Positions 1,924 to 50,818 of a stretch of 64,000 nt of DNA are shown piece after piece. Below the pieces are notes generated by a model, which was given only the letters and a program-made list of their open reading frames with translations, did no database searches and was not told the origin of the DNA. The stretch's first letter is position 1; every line of letters begins with the position of its first letter. A program made the translations under genes and the position numbers. Location: contig NZ_CP117835.1 of NCBI RefSeq assembly GCF_029094545.1, positions 1,158,001 to 1,222,000 on the forward strand, read 5' to 3'. The DNA is from Alkalihalophilus pseudofirmus (GTDB lineage Bacteria; Bacillota; Bacilli; Bacillales; Bacillaceae_D).

Positions 1924-2394
1924 AGCTGGGTTATAGCTTCTTTCAGAAATGTAGTGGAATGATGTAGTAATAAATTCAAAACTAAACTCTTCAAACATGG
2001 GGTATAGCGGATTCGTCGCTTCTGAACTATACTACGCTTTCCGTGTGGAGCTGGTGAGCTTCTTCGGGCTTGGGCCCTGTGGGATCTCACTCCTGCTCTA
2101 GTCCACACAGGAGTCTCCGTATAATTCATCCGCTAGGTTATTTGCTTTATGGATATATTTAGTGGAATGATTTAATTTGGAGTCACTTCATTCATAAATA
2201 TCATTACTTTTACCTCTGTTTCATTTGAAAAGGTTCCTAATAAGCCATTCTCAATGAGAGGAACCACTTATTAATCTACTCGCTCCGTTGATTGGAGTGG
2301 AAAGCGAGTACCTGCAGCAGAAATCAACAAATTCTTTAAGTGGAGACTTTTTCAGTGGTGTTGCAGGGCATTCGATAAAGGTAGGAGATGCATC
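1924..2394. repeat. 471-bp intergenic stretch built from two small repeat elements
   Basis: No gene is visible. Element A (about 2005-2135) has 8-bp terminal inverted repeats, TAGCGGAT at 2005-2012 and ATCCGCTA at 2128-2135. It is bracketed by an exact 12-bp direct repeat TAGTGGAATGAT (1952-1963 and 2160-2171). Its reverse complement matches 53809-53930. Element B (about 2258-2328) begins GTTGATTGG (2287) and ends AAATCAAC (2328), and is an internally deleted relative of 53546-53700. These interrupt what should be a continuous zinc operon. Whether transcription reads through is unknown. Confidence 0.75.
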
Positions 2395-3255
2395 ATGCAG
2401 GAATTATTAATGAATTTAACATTTATAGAACGCGGAGTACTGGCAGGAGTTTTGATTGCTCTTATTTGTCCGATTGTGGGTGCTTTTTTGATGGTCAGAA
2501 GAGTTTCGATCATTTCTGAATCACTATCTCATATCACCCTAACAGGAATCTCTGCTGGAGTTTTATTAGGATCGACAACGATGATTTTTAGTGATTTAAA
2601 CCCTATGTATGCAGGACTTATCTTCGCTGTTGCCGGCTCTTTGCTTATTGAAAAGCTGCGTGATCTTTATAAACACTTTCAAGAGCTTGCTATTCCTATT
2701 ATTTTATCTGCTGGTGTAGGGTTAAGTGCTATTTTTATGAGCCTGTCTCAATCAGGGTATAATGAATGGTATGCGTATTTATTTGGAAGTATTGTTAGTG
2801 TAAGCCGCGAAGATTTACAATTTATTATTTATACAGCACTCATTGTGATTGGTATCGTTATTTTATTTTATAAAGAGTTTATTTCCATTTCTTTTGATCA
2901 AGAATATGCTACGGTCTCAGGGATCTCAGTTCGTTTTATGAATCAAGTATTCGCGATACTCGTCGCGTTTATTATTGCAATGTCAATGAAGGTTGTAGGG
3001 ATTTTACTTGTAGGTGCGATGATTGTATTGCCTGTGGCTACAAGCATTCATCTCTCTAAAAGCTTTAAACAAGTGATTGGGTTTGGAATCCTATTTGCTC
3101 AGATTGCCATGTTATCTGGAGTCTATTTTTCTTATCAATTTAATATTGCCACTGGCGGGATGATTGTTGTAATGGGTATGTTACAGCTTGTGATCGTAAT
3201 GGGTGTTAAAAAGATCATCAATGAGTGGCAAAGGAGGGCTAAACGTGAATATTGA
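2395..3255 (+). CDS. znuB: Zinc ABC transporter permease, ZnuB/ABC-3 family (copy 2)
   Basis: Second ABC-3 permease (286 aa), clearly paralogous to the one at 1054: both share the VRRxSxIxxxLSHITL block near the N-terminus and the VGILLVxxxxxLPVA block near residue 210, and both are polytopic. The start is ATG 2395 with AGGAGAT upstream. The end overlaps the zur coding region by 11 bp, so zur translation is probably coupled to this gene. The ATPase at 253 is the only one in the window that could serve it. Zinc as substrate is inferred from zur linkage. Confidence 0.87.
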   Translation: MQELLMNLTFIERGVLAGVLIALICPIVGAFLMVRRVSIISESLSHITLTGISAGVLLGSTTMIFSDLNPMYAGLIFAVAGSLLIEKLRDLYKHFQELAIPIILSAGVGLSAIFMSLSQSGYNEWYAYLFGSIVSVSREDLQFIIYTALIVIGIVILFYKEFISISFDQEYATVSGISVRFMNQVFAILVAFIIAMSMKVVGILLVGAMIVLPVATSIHLSKSFKQVIGFGILFAQIAMLSGVYFSYQFNIATGGMIVVMGMLQLVIVMGVKKIINEWQRRAKREY

Positions 3256-3658
3256 TCAAGCAATGACGGTATTAAAAAATAAAGGATATAAGCATACAGA
3301 TAAGCGGGCGGATATGCTGAAGCTTTTTGCAGACCAAAAAAGGTACTTATCGGCAAAAGATGTATTAGAAAGTCTTCAAGATGAGTATCCTGGTTTAAGC
3401 TTTGATACCATTTACCGTAACCTTTCGTTGTTTAGTGACTTAAATATATTAGAAGCTACGGAACTTGAAGGAGAAAAACGCTTCCGCTTTAGCTGTGCCA
3501 CAAGTGAACATCATCATCACCTTATTTGTCTTGATTGTGGTAAAACAAAGCACATTCATAGCTGTCCGATGGATTCACTTGATACAATGTATCCTGATTT
3601 TGAAGTGACCGGTCATAAATTTGAGATCTATGGAAAATGTGAGGAGTGCAGATCGTAG
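3245..3658 (+). CDS. zur: Zinc uptake regulator Zur (Fur family repressor)
   Basis: Fur-family dimeric DNA-binding repressor that senses zinc and shuts off zinc uptake genes. I chose GTG 3245 because AAGGAGGG sits at 3231-3238 and the upstream extension (to 3203) lies inside the permease gene. Seen in the 137-aa product: N-terminal winged helix with SFDTIYRNLSLF (residues 52-63), HHHH at 89-92, and two structural zinc CxxC pairs at 95/98 and 132/135. It overlaps the permease by 11 bp. The direct link with znuC and znuB genes, rather than iron or peroxide genes, supports Zur over Fur or PerR. Confidence 0.92.
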   Translation: MNIDQAMTVLKNKGYKHTDKRADMLKLFADQKRYLSAKDVLESLQDEYPGLSFDTIYRNLSLFSDLNILEATELEGEKRFRFSCATSEHHHHLICLDCGKTKHIHSCPMDSLDTMYPDFEVTGHKFEIYGKCEECRS

Positions 3659-3690
3659 CATTGGAATTAAATATAATGAAACACAATGAA

Positions 3691-3716
3691 GCCCTCGCTT
3701 TAAGCGGGGTTTTTTT
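3691..3716 (+). terminator. Rho-independent terminator after zur
   Basis: GC-rich stem CCC-T-CGC / GCGGGG (one bulged T) with a TTTAA loop, followed by seven T. It ends the zinc operon. Confidence 0.85.
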
Positions 3717-13072: not shown

Positions 13073-13236
13073 GTGTGATAGGAATTGGTTAACAGGATTG
13101 ATTTAAAGCAGCCAATTCATTAATGGAATGTGAGTGGAACTGGAACTTTTTAAAGGTGAGTTATGCTATAATGAACAAGCGTCTAATAAGTGTTGTACCT
13201 CTTTGAAATATAAGCGTACAAAAATAAAAAAACATA

Positions 13237-13265
13237 TTGACTTTATCTCCGTTGGTTGGTATTAT
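13237..13265 (+). promoter_or_regulatory. Promoter of the tRNA cluster
   Basis: TTGACT (13237-13242), 17-bp spacer, TATTAT (13260-13265), about 40 bp upstream of the first tRNA: a good vegetative sigma-A promoter. A second isolated TATAAT lies at 13167-13172 but lacks a good -35. Confidence 0.65.
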
Positions 13266-13306
13266 AATTCTTGTCTTCAACAAAAGACGGATGATACATA
13301 ACATAT

Positions 13307-13381
13307 TCCACAGTAGCTCAGTGGTAGAGCAATCGGCTGTTAACCGATCGGTCGTAGGTTCGAGTCCTACCTGTGGAGCCA
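13307..13381 (+). tRNA. tRNA-Asn (GTT)
   Basis: Full cloverleaf: acceptor TCCACAG/CTGTGGA, anticodon loop CTGTTAA (anticodon GTT), T-arm GTAGG-TTCGAGT-CCTAC, discriminator G and encoded CCA. First of five tRNAs. Confidence 0.97.
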
Positions 13382-13385
13382 TTAT

Positions 13386-13459
13386 GGCGGTGTAGCTCAG
13401 CTGGCTAGAGCGTACGGTTCATACCCGTGAGGTCGGGGGTTCGATCCCCTCCGCCGCTA
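13386..13459 (+). tRNA. tRNA-Met (CAT), elongator; CCA not encoded
   Basis: Matches the elongator tRNA-Met type (GGCGGTGTAGCTCAG start, anticodon loop TTCATAC). The acceptor GGCGGTG pairs with CGCCGCT, discriminator A. The next bases are TCC, so the CCA end is not encoded, unlike its four neighbours; it must be added by the CCA-adding enzyme. Confidence 0.94.
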
Positions 13460-13484
13460 TCCTTATTACTTATCATAAACAAAT

Positions 13485-13561
13485 GGCGATTGTGGCGAAG
13501 TGGTTAACGCACCGGATTGTGGTTCCGGCATTCGTGGGTTCGATTCCCATCAGTCGCCCCA
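13485..13561 (+). tRNA. tRNA-His (GTG)
   Basis: Anticodon loop ATTGTGG (anticodon GTG). The extra 5' G (13485) opposite discriminator C (13558) is encoded, as usual for tRNA-His. CCA encoded at 13559-13561. Confidence 0.96.
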
Positions 13562-13566
13562 TACGA

Positions 13567-13643
13567 GGACCCTTAGCTCAGTTGGTTAGAGCAGTCGGCT
13601 CATAACCGATCGGTCGTAGGTTCGAGTCCTACAGGGTCCACCA
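13567..13643 (+). tRNA. tRNA-Ile (CAT anticodon, lysidine-modified type)
   Basis: Acceptor GGACCCT/AGGGTCC, anticodon CAT, CCA encoded. The body resembles Bacillus tRNA-Ile2 rather than initiator tRNA (which starts CGCGGGG) or elongator Met (13386). The anticodon C would be changed to lysidine by TilS to read AUA. The Ile versus Met call is from memory of the Bacillus sequences. Confidence 0.88.
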
Positions 13644-13657
13644 TAGTTTTATATTGC

Positions 13658-13750
13658 GGAGGAATACCCAAGTCCGGCTGAAGGGATCGGTCTTGAAAAC
13701 CGACAGGCGGGTTAAACCGCGCGGGGGTTCGAATCCCTCTTCCTCCGCCA
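13658..13750 (+). tRNA. tRNA-Ser (TGA)
   Basis: 93-nt class II tRNA with acceptor GGAGGAA/TTCCTCC, anticodon loop CTTGAAA (anticodon TGA), a long variable arm (CAGGCGGGTTAAACCGCGC) and encoded CCA. Confidence 0.96.
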
Positions 13751-13776
13751 TACATAATGATAATTGATTTACATAG

Positions 13777-13807
13777 AAAAAGAGCTGCCCCCTCGGGCAG
13801 CTCTTTT
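13777..13807 (+). terminator. Terminator of the tRNA operon
   Basis: Stem AAAAGAGCTGCCC / GGGCAGCTCTTTT with a CCTC loop, 26 bp after tRNA-Ser. Confidence 0.9.
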
Positions 13808-13840
13808 GTGTTGAATAACTATATTAGGCGAGGGCAAATG

Positions 13841-14016
13841 GAAGCGATTCAGCTCTGAAACGATACAATTTGGTGTAAGAGTGACGCAATTGGAGTTTGA
13901 ACCGCCGCAATAAAAGCAGAGTGACGCAATTAAGCGATCAATCGATTCAATTCTGTGATCCACCCGCGCAATCACTTCTCTAATTAGCGCATAAACTGAT
14001 TGAAAACATACAATTA
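13841..14016. repeat. CGCAAT array 1: degenerate motif repeated every 21 bp
   Basis: A non-coding stretch in which a CGCAAT-like hexamer recurs in phase. The C of the motif falls at 13845 (CGATT), 13866, 13887, 13908, 13927, 13948, 13969, 13990 (CATAA) and 14011. Every step is 21 bp except 13908 to 13927, which is 19 bp. Bases between motifs are not repeated. The same layout, including the 19-bp step and the flanking ATAAAAG.AGAGTGACGCAAT, occurs at 30802-31005. It lies between the tRNA terminator and the end of uppP. Function unknown; 21 bp is two DNA turns, so the motifs face one side of the helix. Confidence 0.7.
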
Positions 14017-14093
14017 AATTTCCGGCCGCTGGGTGACATAACCATGCCCGCTTTATTCACGTGCGGCTCTGAATTATGACGATTTCTTAATGT

Positions 14094-14906
14094 TTAGGTT
14101 AAGAATATCCAAGTGATAAGACCAAGTGAAATACAGTACACGGCGAAATAACTTAATTTTGCTTTTTGAACCATGGCAATCAACCACTTAATACTAATTA
14201 TGGCAAACAAAAAGGAAGAAATAAAGGCTAGCCATAATTCAAGGCCCACACCGTCTGTAAATTGCCCGATAATCTCAGGAAGTTTTAAAAGGGTGATTCC
14301 AGATATAATCGGAATGGAGAGTAAAAAGGAGTAGCGAAGAGCTGTCTCTTTGTTCAAACCGCACCACAGGGCCACAACGAGAGTACTTCCCGCACGTGAT
14401 ATGCCTGGTATGACTGCTAATGCCTGCCCGAGCCCGATTAATACCGCATGCCCCCATGTTATTTCCTTTGGTCCCCTCAATCCCTCATTTACACCATGTT
14501 CAATTAAGATTAAAAAGATCCCGGTGATAATCAGAGCAGCGCCGATCGTCGCTGTATTGGTGATGGAGTCTCCAAACCAACCTTCCATCAGCTTACCGAC
14601 AATCATTGTAATAAGAGTAGAGGCGGCCATTAAAGCAGTAAATCTGAAATCGCCTTCGCTTCGTTGGTCTTTCTTAAAAAGATATTGATAAGAACCCTGT
14701 AAAAGCTTCAACACATCTTTTCTAAAATACAATAAAACGGCAAGCAAAGATGCTAAATGCAGAAACACTTCAAATGTTAAGGGGCTATCACTCATATTTA
14801 TCTTAAGCAGTTTTTCAAAAATGAGGAGATGAGCACTGCTTGAGATGGGAAGAAATTCTGAAATTCCTTGTATAAACCCTATGAATAAAGCTTCAATCCA
14901 CGACAT
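14094..14906 (-). CDS. uppP: Undecaprenyl-diphosphatase UppP (BacA)
   Basis: Membrane phosphatase that recycles undecaprenyl pyrophosphate to the carrier lipid for peptidoglycan and teichoic acid synthesis; also linked to bacitracin resistance. 270 aa, about 8 helices. Seen: the first signature QGISEFLPISSSAHL (residues 14-28) and the second PGISRAGSTL (about 165-175), which hold the catalytic Glu/Ser/Arg residues. AAAGGAGG precedes ATG 14906. Monocistronic. Confidence 0.95.
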   Translation of the reverse strand: MSWIEALFIGFIQGISEFLPISSSAHLLIFEKLLKINMSDSPLTFEVFLHLASLLAVLLYFRKDVLKLLQGSYQYLFKKDQRSEGDFRFTALMAASTLITMIVGKLMEGWFGDSITNTATIGAALIITGIFLILIEHGVNEGLRGPKEITWGHAVLIGLGQALAVIPGISRAGSTLVVALWCGLNKETALRYSFLLSIPIISGITLLKLPEIIGQFTDGVGLELWLAFISSFLFAIISIKWLIAMVQKAKLSYFAVYCISLGLITWIFLT

Positions 14907-15040
14907 TAGATCCTCCTTTAAAGCTAAGTTATTACATTCTTATGGGACAAGAAATGAATTTATGATCCATCTTGTTTAAAGGGGTTAGGTAGTGGGAAAT
15001 GTATAAAGGTGTGCGAAATCGAAAGAATAGTGCATTATCG

Positions 15041-15110
15041 TTGCAACAAAGAGAAGATTTTGGTAATGTAGAAGCGGAAAGACTTAAGAAACATAACTGT
15101 TGATTAAGTC
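15041..15110 (+). promoter_or_regulatory. Probable sodA promoter and leader inverted repeat
   Basis: TTGCAA (15041-15046), 17 bp, TAATGT (15064-15069) is a plausible sigma-A promoter. Just downstream an inverted repeat GACTTAA (15081-15087) / TTAAGTC (15104-15110) falls in the would-be 5' leader and could be an operator or a leader hairpin. Confidence 0.4.
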
Positions 15111-15175
15111 ATTTGCCTTTTGGGAAAAGACGTCCCAAGTTACACATGTATTCATTATAAGGAGGAGATTTTGAA

Positions 15176-15784
15176 ATGGCTTACGAATTACCACAATTAC
15201 CTTACGCAGCAAACGCTCTAGAACCTCATATTGATGAGCAAACAATGAATATTCACCACGGGAAGCATCACAACACTTACATCACTAAATTAAATGCAGC
15301 ACTTGAAGGACATGATGATCTTCAAAGCAAAAGCATTGAAGAGCTTGTAAGTAACCTTGATGCAGTACCTGAGAACATTCGTGGTGCAGTACGTAACAAT
15401 GGTGGCGGACATGCTAACCACACATTCTTCTGGCAAATCCTTAGCCCGAATGGTGGCGGTGCACCAACTGGCGAATTAGCAGATGCAATTAATTCTGAAT
15501 TTGGCAGCTTTGAAGCATTCAAAGAAAAATTTGCTGATGCAGGAGCTAACCGTTTCGGTTCTGGTTGGGCATGGCTAATTGTTGATGGCGGAAAGCTTGC
15601 TGTTACAAGCACTCCAAACCAAGATACGCCTCTTATGGAAGGTAAAACACCAATCCTAGGATTAGATGTTTGGGAGCATGCTTACTACTTAAACTACCAA
15701 AACCGTCGTCCCGACTACATCAACGCATTCTGGAATGTAGTTAACTGGGAAGAGGTTTCAAAACGTTACGCAGAAGCTAAATAA
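15176..15784 (+). CDS. sodA: Superoxide dismutase [Mn/Fe] SodA
   Basis: Cytoplasmic enzyme dismutating superoxide to hydrogen peroxide and oxygen. 202 aa, normal length. Metal ligands are visible: His in [11 protein letters not shown] (about residue 27), His in [11 protein letters not shown] (about 82), Asp and His in [18 protein letters not shown] (about 164 and 168). Manganese is likely from family type ([10 protein letters not shown], and the GGGAPTGEL region) but Fe or cambialistic use cannot be excluded. AAGGAGGAG precedes the ATG. sodA-yqgE-pbpA order matches B. subtilis. Confidence 0.96.
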
Positions 15785-15807
15785 TAAGCAAAAGCTAAAT
15801 GATAATA

Positions 15808-15845
15808 GGAAAAGCAAAGTCCAAGCGGGCTTTGCTTTTTTTTTA
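15808..15845 (+). terminator. Terminator after sodA
   Basis: Stem AAAGCAAAG-TCC / GGG-CTTTGCTTT with an AAGC loop and a run of nine T. Confidence 0.88.
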
Positions 15846-17554: not shown

Positions 17555-17760
17555 CAAATTAAACAGCTTTGCCTGCCGTGTTAGTGAGCTTCTTCTTGTT
17601 TCGAACCTTGCGTTTTAAAAGGGAGTTCTACATCGAGCTAATGCCAGCAAGCCAGTTTATGCTGGACGCTGAAATTAGTTCTGCGAACACCCACCTACTT
17701 GAGTAGGTTCATGAAACAACTGAAGCAACGGCATTCGCGGGTATATACTTTAGAATGAAT
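17555..17760 (+). ncRNA. ssrS: Probable 6S RNA (SsrS)
   Basis: Regulatory RNA that mimics an open promoter and binds sigma-A RNA polymerase. There is no reading frame between 17477 and 17844, but a near-consensus promoter points into it. The transcript has a closing stem (TGCCGT near 17574 / ACGGCA near 17730), an internal asymmetric region with TTCGAACCTTGCG and GGGAGTT, and a CACCCACCTACTTGAGTAGGTT hairpin-type segment near 17690-17711, which I recognise from Bacillus 6S RNAs. Ends are approximate. A stem TAGACACC/GGTGTCTA at 17763-17786 follows and may terminate or process it. Family assignment is by recall of motifs, not by a covariance search. Confidence 0.72.
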
Positions 17761-30709: not shown

Positions 30710-30742
30710 AAAAGACAGAGGTGGTTGTGCCTCTGTCTTTTT
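30710..30742 (+). terminator. Terminator after thiF
   Basis: Stem AAAGACAGAGG / CCTCTGTCTTT with a TGGTTGTG loop and a T tail. Confidence 0.9.
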
Positions 30743-30801
30743 TGTGATTGATTAAAGGAGTGATAAACAGAGGACAGCGGCGATACAAAGTCATTCTTTA
30801 A

Positions 30802-31005
30802 TAGGCGCAACTAGATCAATCTCAAGTACGCGCAATAATTGTAAAAGTAGAGACATAATATAAGTATCTAGACGCGATTACAGGCTGAACTAACGCAATA
30901 AAAGTAGAGTGACGCAATAAGTGGTCACACAGGAGCAATTACGGTGGGTACCCGCGCAATTCATTTTTTAACCGACGCAATAAGTCGTCCAATGGGCGCA
31001 ATTTG
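30802..31005. repeat. CGCAAT array 2: same 21-bp periodic architecture as array 1
   Basis: Motif C positions: 30808, 30833, 30854 (CATAA), 30875 (CGATT), 30896, 30915, 30936, 30957, 30978 and 30998. Steps are 25, 21, 21, 21, 19, 21, 21, 21 and 20. The 19-bp step (30896 to 30915) coincides with ACGCAATAAAAG.AGAGTGACGCAAT, as in array 1, and the second unit after it reads ACCCGCGCAAT in both. Intermediate bases differ freely. It lies in a gene-free stretch between thiF and nhaC. No protein frame is credible. Confidence 0.7.
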
Positions 31006-31055
31006 ATGAGTCCTTATCTGACTTCTTATTGCTTCCCCTAAGTTTTCGAATGCCA

Positions 31056-31445
31056 GAACAGCCAATTCAGCCTTTCTTCCTGTCTAGCTCCGGCTCCTTG
31101 TCCTGCGGGAAATAACGGTGCATCGAATGAAGACAAAAAGCGTCTTCATATCGCTGCCCCTCATATTTCCGCATACCAGCCCAGTCACCTCCGCTTTTCT
31201 TATTGTCTAGCTTCATTGGCTAGGTCGTCGTCGGCTTCACTTTGCCAAATGAAGCAAAAAGCGCTTCTAATTGTCAAAGTTCCACCCTCCTTTGACCTGA
31301 ACAGCCAATTCAGCTTTTCTTCCTGTCTAGCTCCGGCTCCTTGTCCTGCGGGAAATACCGGTGCATCGAATGAAGTCAAAAAGCGACTTCATATCGCTGC
31401 CCCTAGTATTTCCGCATGCCAGCCCAGTCGCCTCCGCTTTTCTTA
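31056..31445. repeat. Two 147-bp direct repeats with covarying hairpins
   Basis: Copies at 31056-31202 and 31299-31445, 243 bp apart, differ at about 8 positions. Both contain a hairpin with a constant AAAAAGC loop. In copy 1 the stem is GAAGAC (31129-31134) and GTCTTC (31142-31147). In copy 2 it is GAAGTC (31372-31377) and GACTTC (31385-31390), two changes that keep pairing. Between the copies a third hairpin, GAAGC (31251-31255) and GCTTC (31263-31267), uses the same loop. An outer stem (TGCGG-GAAATA / TATTTCCGCA) encloses the first two. Related to the 15863-16136 block. Confidence 0.75.
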
Positions 31446-31466
31446 TATACTATTTCAAAAAAGTTA

Positions 31467-31495
31467 TTGACGGGTGTTGTGGTTTGGTCTACGAT
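31467..31495 (+). promoter_or_regulatory. Promoter of nhaC
   Basis: TTGACG (31467-31472), 17-bp spacer, TACGAT (31490-31495), about 90 bp upstream of the start. Short direct repeats (CGTAAAAG, AGTACGAAAG) lie in the leader at about 31517-31550. Confidence 0.6.
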
Positions 31496-31583
31496 ATGTT
31501 TATTGAACACTTAACTGCGTAAAAGCATAAAAGCGTAAAAGTACGAAAGTATTGTGATAGAAATAGAGTAGGGGAGAAGAAGG

Positions 31584-43510: not shown

Positions 43511-43544
43511 AGGGGTGTAATCAACTAAATAAAAAGCTGTAGAA

Positions 43545-43636
43545 GGCTAGGGGTGCCCGCTTAAGCAGGCTGAGAAAAAGGTAGTTTCCTTTTACCCTTG
43601 TACCTGATCTGGTTCGTACCAGCGTAGGGAAGTCGA
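43545..43636 (+). promoter_or_regulatory. TPP (THI-element) riboswitch
   Basis: Thiamine-pyrophosphate-sensing leader. Conserved blocks: AGGGGTGCCC (43549-43558), GCTGAGA (43568-43574), ACCC (43595-43598), ACCTGATCTGG (43602-43612), TACCAGCGTAGGGAA (43617-43631). It precedes thiE and is followed by a transcription terminator (43661-43696), the OFF expression platform. Confidence 0.95.
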
Positions 43637-43660
43637 CTGCAAATGAGTGAATCATATGTA

Positions 43661-49664: not shown

Positions 49665-50750
49665 ATGATGATTCGGGGATTGTCTTATCAGCGAGGAATT
49701 TTCTTTATGGGTAAGACACATATAGCCTGTTCCTATCACGATAAAGGCCGGCTTGTGACATGGATTAAGCCTTATGAGACAAAAACAGTCCTTATAATGG
49801 CAAAGCAGATCATTTTGTCAATGCCCTTATGGTTCAAGGCTGTTGTACTAGCATGGATAGCTCTAGTATTCGTCCCTATACTGCCATTGGCAATAGGGTT
49901 GAATGAACTTCCGTTTTACACGCTGCTCTATCTAATGTTTGGCACGCATTTCATGTTCCCGAACAGTTTAAGAAAATACCACGGAGCGGAGCATAAGGTG
50001 TTTAGTGATCGGGGAGTTAAGCGCCGGGGGAGGTTATACCGAATAAAAAAAGCAGCCATAACAAATCGCTTTTGTTCAACAAATATTGTAGTGATCTACT
50101 TTTTAAGTGTGATAAGTTTATGTATCATTTTCCTGGCAGCTGGATTACAGGTAACGGATGCACTTATGTACAGCTCGTATGCAGCGCTTCTTTTCATTCC
50201 GCTTCTTCAGTTCGTGATGAGAGGAAAGATAGCAGGGTTTAAATGGCTTCAACAATTCATTTTAACCATCTCTTATTGGCTGCAAGAGAAAATTACCACA
50301 GCAGAACCAGAACATAAGCATTTAATATGTGCGATACAGTCTTACAGGACGCTCGCTAAAGAAGAGTTTCCAGAACATCTAGCAGCGCGGAAAGTGATGA
50401 AAAAGAAGGAGGAAAAACATATGGCAATTGTTGATGTTACGGTTATACCAATTGGAACGGAGACACCGAGTGTGAGTCAATATGTAGCTGAAATTCAGAA
50501 CGTGTTATCATCATACGAAGATAAAATCACCTATGAATTAACACCAATGAGTACATTGATTGAAGGAGAGCTGCCAGTCTTATTTGAAGTTATCCAAGCT
50601 ATTCATGAGGTGCCGTTTAAGCATGGATTAAAGCGTGTAGCAACGAATATTCGTATTGATGACCGCAGGGATAAAGAGTCAACGATGCAAAGCAAACGTG
50701 CATCAGTAGAAGCTCGCATGAAACAGCAACCGAATGATTCTATTGAATAA
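49665..50750 (+). CDS. In-frame fusion: DUF1385 membrane domain plus thiamine-binding MTH1187/YqgV domain
   Basis: 361 aa. Residues ~1-240 form a DUF1385 (YqhQ-like) membrane domain with four or five helices and the signature KYHGAEHKV (about 105-113). Residues ~253-361 form a small MTH1187/YqgV ferredoxin-like domain, beginning MAIVDVTVIPIGTETPSVSQ; relatives bind thiamine. The two are joined by KVMKKKEEKH with no stop. A strong AAGGAGG (50406-50412) and ATG 50421 inside suggest the second domain may also be made alone. YqgV is normally a separate 104-110 aa protein. Start ATG 49665 follows GAGAGGGG. Confidence 0.75.
   Translation: MMIRGLSYQRGIFFMGKTHIACSYHDKGRLVTWIKPYETKTVLIMAKQIILSMPLWFKAVVLAWIALVFVPILPLAIGLNELPFYTLLYLMFGTHFMFPNSLRKYHGAEHKVFSDRGVKRRGRLYRIKKAAITNRFCSTNIVVIYFLSVISLCIIFLAAGLQVTDALMYSSYAALLFIPLLQFVMRGKIAGFKWLQQFILTISYWLQEKITTAEPEHKHLICAIQSYRTLAKEEFPEHLAARKVMKKKEEKHMAIVDVTVIPIGTETPSVSQYVAEIQNVLSSYEDKITYELTPMSTLIEGELPVLFEVIQAIHEVPFKHGLKRVATNIRIDDRRDKESTMQSKRASVEARMKQQPNDSIE
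50421..50750 (+). other. yqgV: Probable internal translation start for free YqgV-like protein
   Basis: ATG 50421 has a near-perfect ribosome binding site (AAGGAGG, 50406-50412) in the linker of the fusion gene. Its product would be 109 aa, the normal size of a stand-alone MTH1187/YqgV thiamine-binding protein. This predicts two products from one gene: the long fusion and the short soluble domain. Confidence 0.55.
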
Positions 50751-50818
50751 CTCAGTCGAATAATTCAATCAAATAATCCAATCAAATAAATCTATAGAGA
50801 ATAGGCAATAAACTCACA

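Follow-up and report, generated by a model that had tools for sequence, protein, structure and literature searches.

A nine-slot array of short motifs in the genome of Alkalihalophilus pseudofirmus (array 1) belongs to a chromosomal element that is present in many copies and is found in scattered Bacillales. The element is characterized by its architecture, by the joint conservation of motif and spacing, by its position and orientation behind genes, and by an empty site in a congener. It is probably a DNA site on which a protein assembles cooperatively, head to tail, so as to wrap or coat the DNA, and could likely serve as a local boundary, a reading in which binding, wrapping and the boundary role are inferred from these features. 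The window, that is, the whole 64,000-nucleotide stretch of DNA that was analysed, contains the following relevant features:

13843..14014, + strand: array 1, nine motif slots at steps of 21, 21, 21, 19, 21, 21, 21 and 21 bp, 172 bp in all (sequence, shuffles and model match)
30831..31002, + strand: array 2, nine-slot plan as in array 1, with a weak slot 2 (CATAAT, 2 bp late) (sequence and shuffles)
13307..13747, + strand: five tRNA genes upstream of array 1 (Rfam tRNA matches)
13777..13807, + strand: hairpin and T-run 3' of the tRNA cluster, resembling an intrinsic terminator (read from the sequence)
13819..14099, + strand: stretch missing from the congener G002, comprising the entire element and its flanks, 281 bp (BLASTN)
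14094..14906, - strand: convergent gene of 270 aa downstream of array 1 (ORF list)
30710..30743, + strand: hairpin with T-run, in the interval from the upstream ThiF-family gene to array 2 (sequence)

The motifs of array 1 start at 13843, 13864, 13885, 13906, 13925, 13946, 13967, 13988 and 14009 and read, in order, AGCGAT, TACAAT, CGCAAT, CGCAAT, CGCAAT, TTCAAT, CGCAAT, CGCATA and TACAAT, so that four of the nine are exact CGCAAT and 44 of 54 bases match it over the nine slots. The sequence-only reading had described nine units with a motif C at positions from 13845 to 14011, which are the third bases of these motifs, and its steps of 21 bp with one of 19 bp are exact. In 500 dinucleotide-preserving shuffles of the window, scored on both strands, the maxima averaged 28.9 (sd 1.0) and the largest was 32, and among all starts in the window array 2 alone (30831, 48/54) scored higher than array 1. 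The single 19-bp step of array 2 fits best at slot 4. The pair CGCAAT-N15-CGCAAT, with up to two mismatches, matched 21 times in the window versus 6.1 expected and a largest value of 12 among 100 shuffles. Neither array is listed by Tandem Repeats Finder at score 30, as expected where the motif alone recurs. The location had been described as non-coding, and indeed no ORF of 80 aa or more spans array 1 in the ORF list; since, in addition, the 19-bp step shifts the frame, a protein-coding repeat was rejected.

In the congener G002, the window positions 13226-13818 and 14100-15840 match 1420-1988 and 1986-3715 of locus L282 by BLASTN, the two segments abutting one another. The missing 281 bp correspond to the interval from the terminator to the convergent gene, whose product is a putative undecaprenyl-diphosphatase. 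No clear target-site duplication, such as a short transposable element (MITE) would leave, was visible at this single site, judged by eye. The locus of array 2 measures 120 bp in G002 versus 802 bp in the window.

A sequence-only model was built from 28 elements, array 1 being one of its input rows (matched at G000:C1:1171838-1172015, E 6.9e-29), and was applied at a cut-off of E 0.01 to 150 of 809 candidates in A. pseudofirmus and to 150 per genome elsewhere. At least 83 elements were matched at E 0.01 or better in the A. pseudofirmus genome and at least 86 in Alkalihalophilus marmarensis DSM 21297 (G001). In G002, the third congener, it gave at least one match, a weak one (E 2.9e-4). CGCAAT-N15-CGCAAT occurs 83 times in the A. 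pseudofirmus genome, whereas the pattern read backwards occurs 0 times. Among the 76 matches listed for this genome, all 76 lie on the main contig, at many places, and 49 would be on the leading strand with the origin placed at the start of the contig. Against the earlier argument that the array is unlike copies of a mobile sequence, the whole element is dispersed like a repeat family (at least 83 copies) and is missing at the G002 empty site; what sets it apart from ordinary repeats is that its spacers have drifted to near chance.

The step plan was derived from a sample of 464 kb, consisting of the window and 20 stretches picked for holding matches. Same-strand distances between CGCAAT motifs in this sample were 21 bp (63 times), 42 (47), 63 (35), 82 (34), 124 (26), 61 and 103 (23 each), and 40 and 19 (18 each), while 126 occurred once and 105 never, which indicates one 19-bp step per element. 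Nothing comparable to these autocorrelation peaks (19, 21, 40, 42, 61, 63, 82, 103 and 124) was seen for five other hexamers. The 464 kb hold 35 chains, of which 30 have the 19-bp step and 12 carry all nine motifs at exact steps without help; in the 30 elements that were aligned, the nine slots were placed by reference to the 19-bp step. In this alignment the conserved site is longer than the hexamer, approximately A-n4-CGCAAT-WA: the A at -5, CAAT and WA are kept, the A at -5 and CAAT being least variable, and bases 9-14 are almost free. The motif is asymmetric, and the slots within an element all face one way. The slots are not equivalent, since CGCAAT counts differ among them (P 7e-6), 15 of the 30 second slots begin with TA (bases 1-2) versus 8 of 240 other slots, slot 2 is mostly TACAAT-like, and slots 3, 6 and 8 are often CGCATA. 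Spacer identity among the 30 copies is 29%, where pooled composition predicts 26% and column composition 32%; spacers are thus near chance between copies, yet slot-specific deviations persist.

Conservation in place was assessed in 19 of the 30 elements by comparison with A. marmarensis orthologs; the other 11 comprised four without an ortholog in the stretches compared, two with less than 150 bp between the A. marmarensis anchors and five with a length difference above 80 bp. Of 1014 bases at motif positions 1-6, 43 differ (4.2%), compared with 271 of 2142 elsewhere in the unit (12.7%; Fisher P 5e-15). The claim that the motif alone is conserved and the spacers are free is borne out by this comparison, and conservation of the whole unit in relatives, which would have spoken against an array of sites, was not what was found. 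By base, substitution amounts to 0.6% at C3, 1.8% at T6, 2.0% at A17 (equivalent to -5) and 14-19% at bases 9-14, and in the flanks to 19% before the array and 11% behind it. Four indels were found in 3,363 bp of these elements (one 21-bp unit, one 19-bp unit and two single-base insertions) versus 25 in about 1,900 bp of flanks, so that indels are about 11 times rarer inside.

The elements were intergenic in the context scan of chains. The upstream gene is on the same strand for 29 of the 34 chains with a called upstream gene; 15 of these 29 lie ahead of a gene on that strand and 14 ahead of a convergent gene, while five of the 34 are not behind a same-strand gene and two of the 34 are divergent. 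In a strict search, with a terminator density of 0.14 per kb per strand, 17 of 30 elements had a terminator no more than 130 bp upstream. GC skew runs from +0.28 to +0.41 in the 60 bp before the array and from -0.29 to -0.46 in the 60 bp behind it, so that a G-rich flank is followed by a C-rich one, the two being inverted in composition only. This flank skew was seen again in other species groups, Lederbergia excepted. A general skew behind terminators was rejected as the source of the G-rich flank, because 104 control terminators gave 0.04 and 0.01, and an effect of convergent genes on the C-rich flank was rejected likewise, because 16 tandem contexts and 14 convergent ones showed the same skew (-0.38). 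The upstream genes share no functional theme: 20 proteins were mixed, three of them subtilases, and 10 more came from other species.

Seven or more pair matches were found in 25 of 397 genomes of the order; one of the 25, G064 (15 pair matches), was left out as a period-7 simple repeat (L251, L261). Control patterns reached that level or a comparable one in two of the other 396 genomes, among them G274 with 10 control versus five pair matches, and exceeded five in none of the rest. Outside the order, 272 genomes of the class had six pair matches at most, and 21 genomes of other members of the source family had 0-2. Nineteen genomes, which belong to 10 families (f1, f2, f3, f13, f14, f19, f25, f27, f41 and f47), had loci with chains of at least three motifs, in a chain scan that covered loci other than L139-L176, which include Alkalihalophilus pseudofirmus OF4 and Robertmurraya massiliosenegalensis; G340 has pairs only, without a chain in its four loci. 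Among the matches listed, arrays occur in Gracilibacillus suaedae, Lentibacillus saliphilus, Lederbergia galactosidilytica, Robertmurraya siralis and Bacillus methanolicus, and shorter runs in Evansella and Psychrobacillus; many of the matches listed outside Bacillales are whole-unit or simple repeats. Carriage by phages was rejected, as the 55 and 4 pattern matches in viral contigs were whole-unit repeats wherever they looked non-coding.

Step plans differ by family, for example [21,20,20,21] and [21,20,21,20,21]. In f27 the former was found in four of 13 chains, the others being varied, with one all-21 chain. Spacers of the 20-bp units in f27 are 74% AT (21 units) versus 40% in the 21-bp units (28 units), which is what twist compensation would predict; in Lederbergia, however, the 19-bp spacers are 25% AT (seven units), and the rule of A-rich short spacers fails there. 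All-21 arrays occur in Gracilibacillus and Lentibacillus. In Lentibacillus saliphilus (L126, L127 and L072) they run to 38-46 motifs with ORFs of up to 405 aa, which probably stem from the periodicity. In other species the upstream gene is on the same strand for 29 of 38 chains, a few all-21 arrays having been counted on both strands.

Conservation of motif and spacing while the intervening bases drift points to a candidate DNA-binding protein, and the combination of one-way sites, set slots and steps close to whole helical turns speaks for a protein assembled on the DNA. Over its two helical turns, each 21-bp unit could provide a single contact with a direction (A-n4-CGCAAT-WA), which would set successive protomers on nearly the same DNA face. 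The helical spacing that had been noted in array 1 holds more widely, since mean steps of 20.5-21 bp in several families keep the motifs near one face. The 19- and 20-bp steps lower the mean to roughly 10.3 bp per turn, a value that a wrapped path of the DNA would predict; by arithmetic from the steps, the mean contact period is 166/16 = 10.4 bp for the A. pseudofirmus plan, 82/8 = 10.25 for [21,20,20,21] and 103/10 = 10.3 bp for [21,20,21,20,21]. Against wrapping, the all-21 arrays of Gracilibacillus and Lentibacillus average 10.5 bp, so that spacing does not force a wrapped path. The two 1-bp insertions inside orthologous elements also count against a phased assembly. Elements directly behind gene ends, mostly past intrinsic terminators and oriented along transcription, would most likely act as local boundaries at the ends of transcription units, where read-through could be stopped or supercoiling absorbed. 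Against this role count the five of 34 elements that are not behind a same-strand gene and the figure of only 17 of 30 with a terminator in the strict search. Two array-free stretches among the matches listed, G000:C1 1.26-1.83 Mb (0.57 Mb) and 2.38-3.41 Mb (1.04 Mb), are not explained by a simple gene-end role; the longer one was exceeded in 0 of 20,000 uniform draws with the 76 matches.

The dispersal of the element would also be expected of a selfish or neutral repeat that spread behind terminators without a host function, a reading for which the 83 or more copies, the empty site in G002, the 0-2 pair matches in other family members and the greater likeness of neighbouring copies all speak. 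We consider it improbable, since motif bases evolve three times more slowly than spacers in place, indels are rare inside, and spacers near chance in most copies imply that the plan has outlived any copying event. Slightly less probable still is an RNA-level element, in which CGCAAU sites in read-through transcripts would be bound by an RNA-binding protein that trims or terminates them. The strict orientation along transcription, the position behind gene ends and transcript flanks that are G-rich and then C-rich are compatible with it, but the clustering of spacings at 19-21 bp, in multiples of about 10.3, is needless for RNA. RNA structure was rejected as an explanation because folding was at chance level relative to shuffles on both strands (z +0.07 and +0.13), and an RNA stem between the flanks because cognate arms pair no better than swapped arms (P 0.08). 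A known RNA family was rejected as well, the Rfam search of the window having given tRNA, 6S and TPP only.

BIMEs of E. coli are linked to gyrase, and a topoisomerase or gyrase site behind transcription units that functions like them would agree with gene-end position, orientation and helical phasing. However, gyrase wraps DNA positively, whereas mean contact periods under 10.5 bp are better matched by a left-handed path; gyrase is universal and the elements are patchy; and the elements contain no palindromes. There is accordingly a small chance of this reading, below that of an RNA-level element. Direct repeats at two helical turns also resemble iterons, so that plasmid-type iterons or centromere sites might have been captured by the chromosome for replication control or segregation. 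This is very improbable, since the 76 matches listed all lie on the main contig at many places and no protein resembling a replication initiator or a partition factor is among the 20 that were scanned upstream.

The cooperative assembly could be extended to a new Bacillales class of directional, slot-numbered, helically phased arrays behind transcription units that a ring- or filament-forming protein would wrap, RemA perhaps, at 82-84 bp per turn, giving a sequence-programmed, nucleosome-like boundary with a lineage-specific step plan; we regard this fuller picture as possible but doubtful. RemA itself would be a candidate binder by geometry only, and an unlikely one. As described in PMC8481266, RemA forms rings of eight with an outer dimension of about 71 A as well as 16-mers, DNA runs on the outer rim, the subunit pair resembles the AgrA LytTR domain, and known footprints are AT-rich 7-bp sites with a 10-bp period. 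With a DNA radius of 10 A and 3.4 A per bp, DNA round this rim was calculated at about 84 bp per turn, which would equal four 21-bp steps, and two stacked rings could accommodate eight steps and nine motifs. This size match was noticed after the fact and fits any particle of that size, LrpC octamers too. A RemA-family gene was present in 26 of 26 genomes tested, array-less ones included, so RemA does not explain the patchy distribution. Co-adaptation of RemA to the arrays was rejected by comparing array-bearing and array-less genomes, RemA being equally conserved in array-less G002 and in G000. The source contig has, at 4286, a further RemA-family gene that is likely remB; RemB as sole binder was rejected, as G264 (51 pair matches) has one RemA-family match only.

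REP and BIME sequences are dispersed, extragenic, present in high copy and often 3' of genes, and have been proposed as protein-binding sites. The CGCAAT elements share with them dispersal, extragenic location, many copies and arrays of short units behind genes; in contrast to palindromic REPs with conserved units, they are non-palindromic, lie in one orientation and have free spacers and a fixed slot number. LytTR/AgrA sites are two direct repeats about 21 bp apart, but they are pairs at promoters with another sequence, whereas the CGCAAT elements have nine slots. Plasmid iterons are direct repeats near two helical turns; unlike the present elements, they conserve about 20 bp and lie at an origin. 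RemA-bound regions of Bacillus, according to PMC8481266, lie upstream of promoters, are weakly conserved and involve a ring thought to wrap DNA. They resemble the CGCAAT elements in having direct repeats in helical register and a protein common to the order, but are AT-rich with a 10-bp period on the promoter side, in contrast to a 21-bp period at gene ends. The TAACTGA repeats of Beggiatoaceae, according to PMC4679880, are abundant intergenic direct repeats of a fixed short motif without RNA structure; unlike the CGCAAT elements, they consist of 7-bp units head to tail without spacers, mostly ahead of start codons. A tandem repeat or VNTR was rejected because the whole unit is not conserved, Tandem Repeats Finder lists neither array and spacer identity is near chance, and a CRISPR array was rejected because about 8-13 bp are conserved per unit versus repeats of 20 bp or more. 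No description of CGCAAT arrays was found in the open-access full-text literature, to which the search was confined, subscription papers lying outside it; the statement of the sequence-only reading that it knew of no named element with this architecture agrees with this. As no family considered fits, we regard the element as a new class by its structure, the mechanism not being part of that claim.

If a protein wraps these sites, Bacillales would have, at gene ends, dozens of DNA-protein particles defined in sequence and stoichiometry and recognizable in the genome from spacing alone, and bacterial chromatin boundaries, RemA-type wrapping and end-of-gene insulation would become directly testable on a 172-bp fragment. 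CGCAAT at 19-21 bp offers a simple search signature for such elements.

Several smaller observations concern copying and the surroundings of the arrays. Three elements within 3 kb at L188 (G000:C1:3672230-3675253) have 61-67% of spacer bases in common, which indicates that local copying occurs, and two of the three have 54-62 bp between anchors in A. marmarensis. Four near-identical units stand in a row at G001:C20:6234-6323, so single units can duplicate. Array 2 is followed, at window 31036-31500, by two copies of a different dispersed repeat in which TTCTTCCTGTCTAGCTCCGGCTCCTTGTCCTGCGGGAAATA occurs, and similar stretches also adjoin arrays in L193 and L177. The window further contains a 6S RNA at 17567-17747, a TPP riboswitch at 43539-43647 and an imperfect 13-bp tandem repeat, CAATCGAATAACT, with 4.8 copies at 50727-50789, just 3' of a gene and ahead of a terminator.
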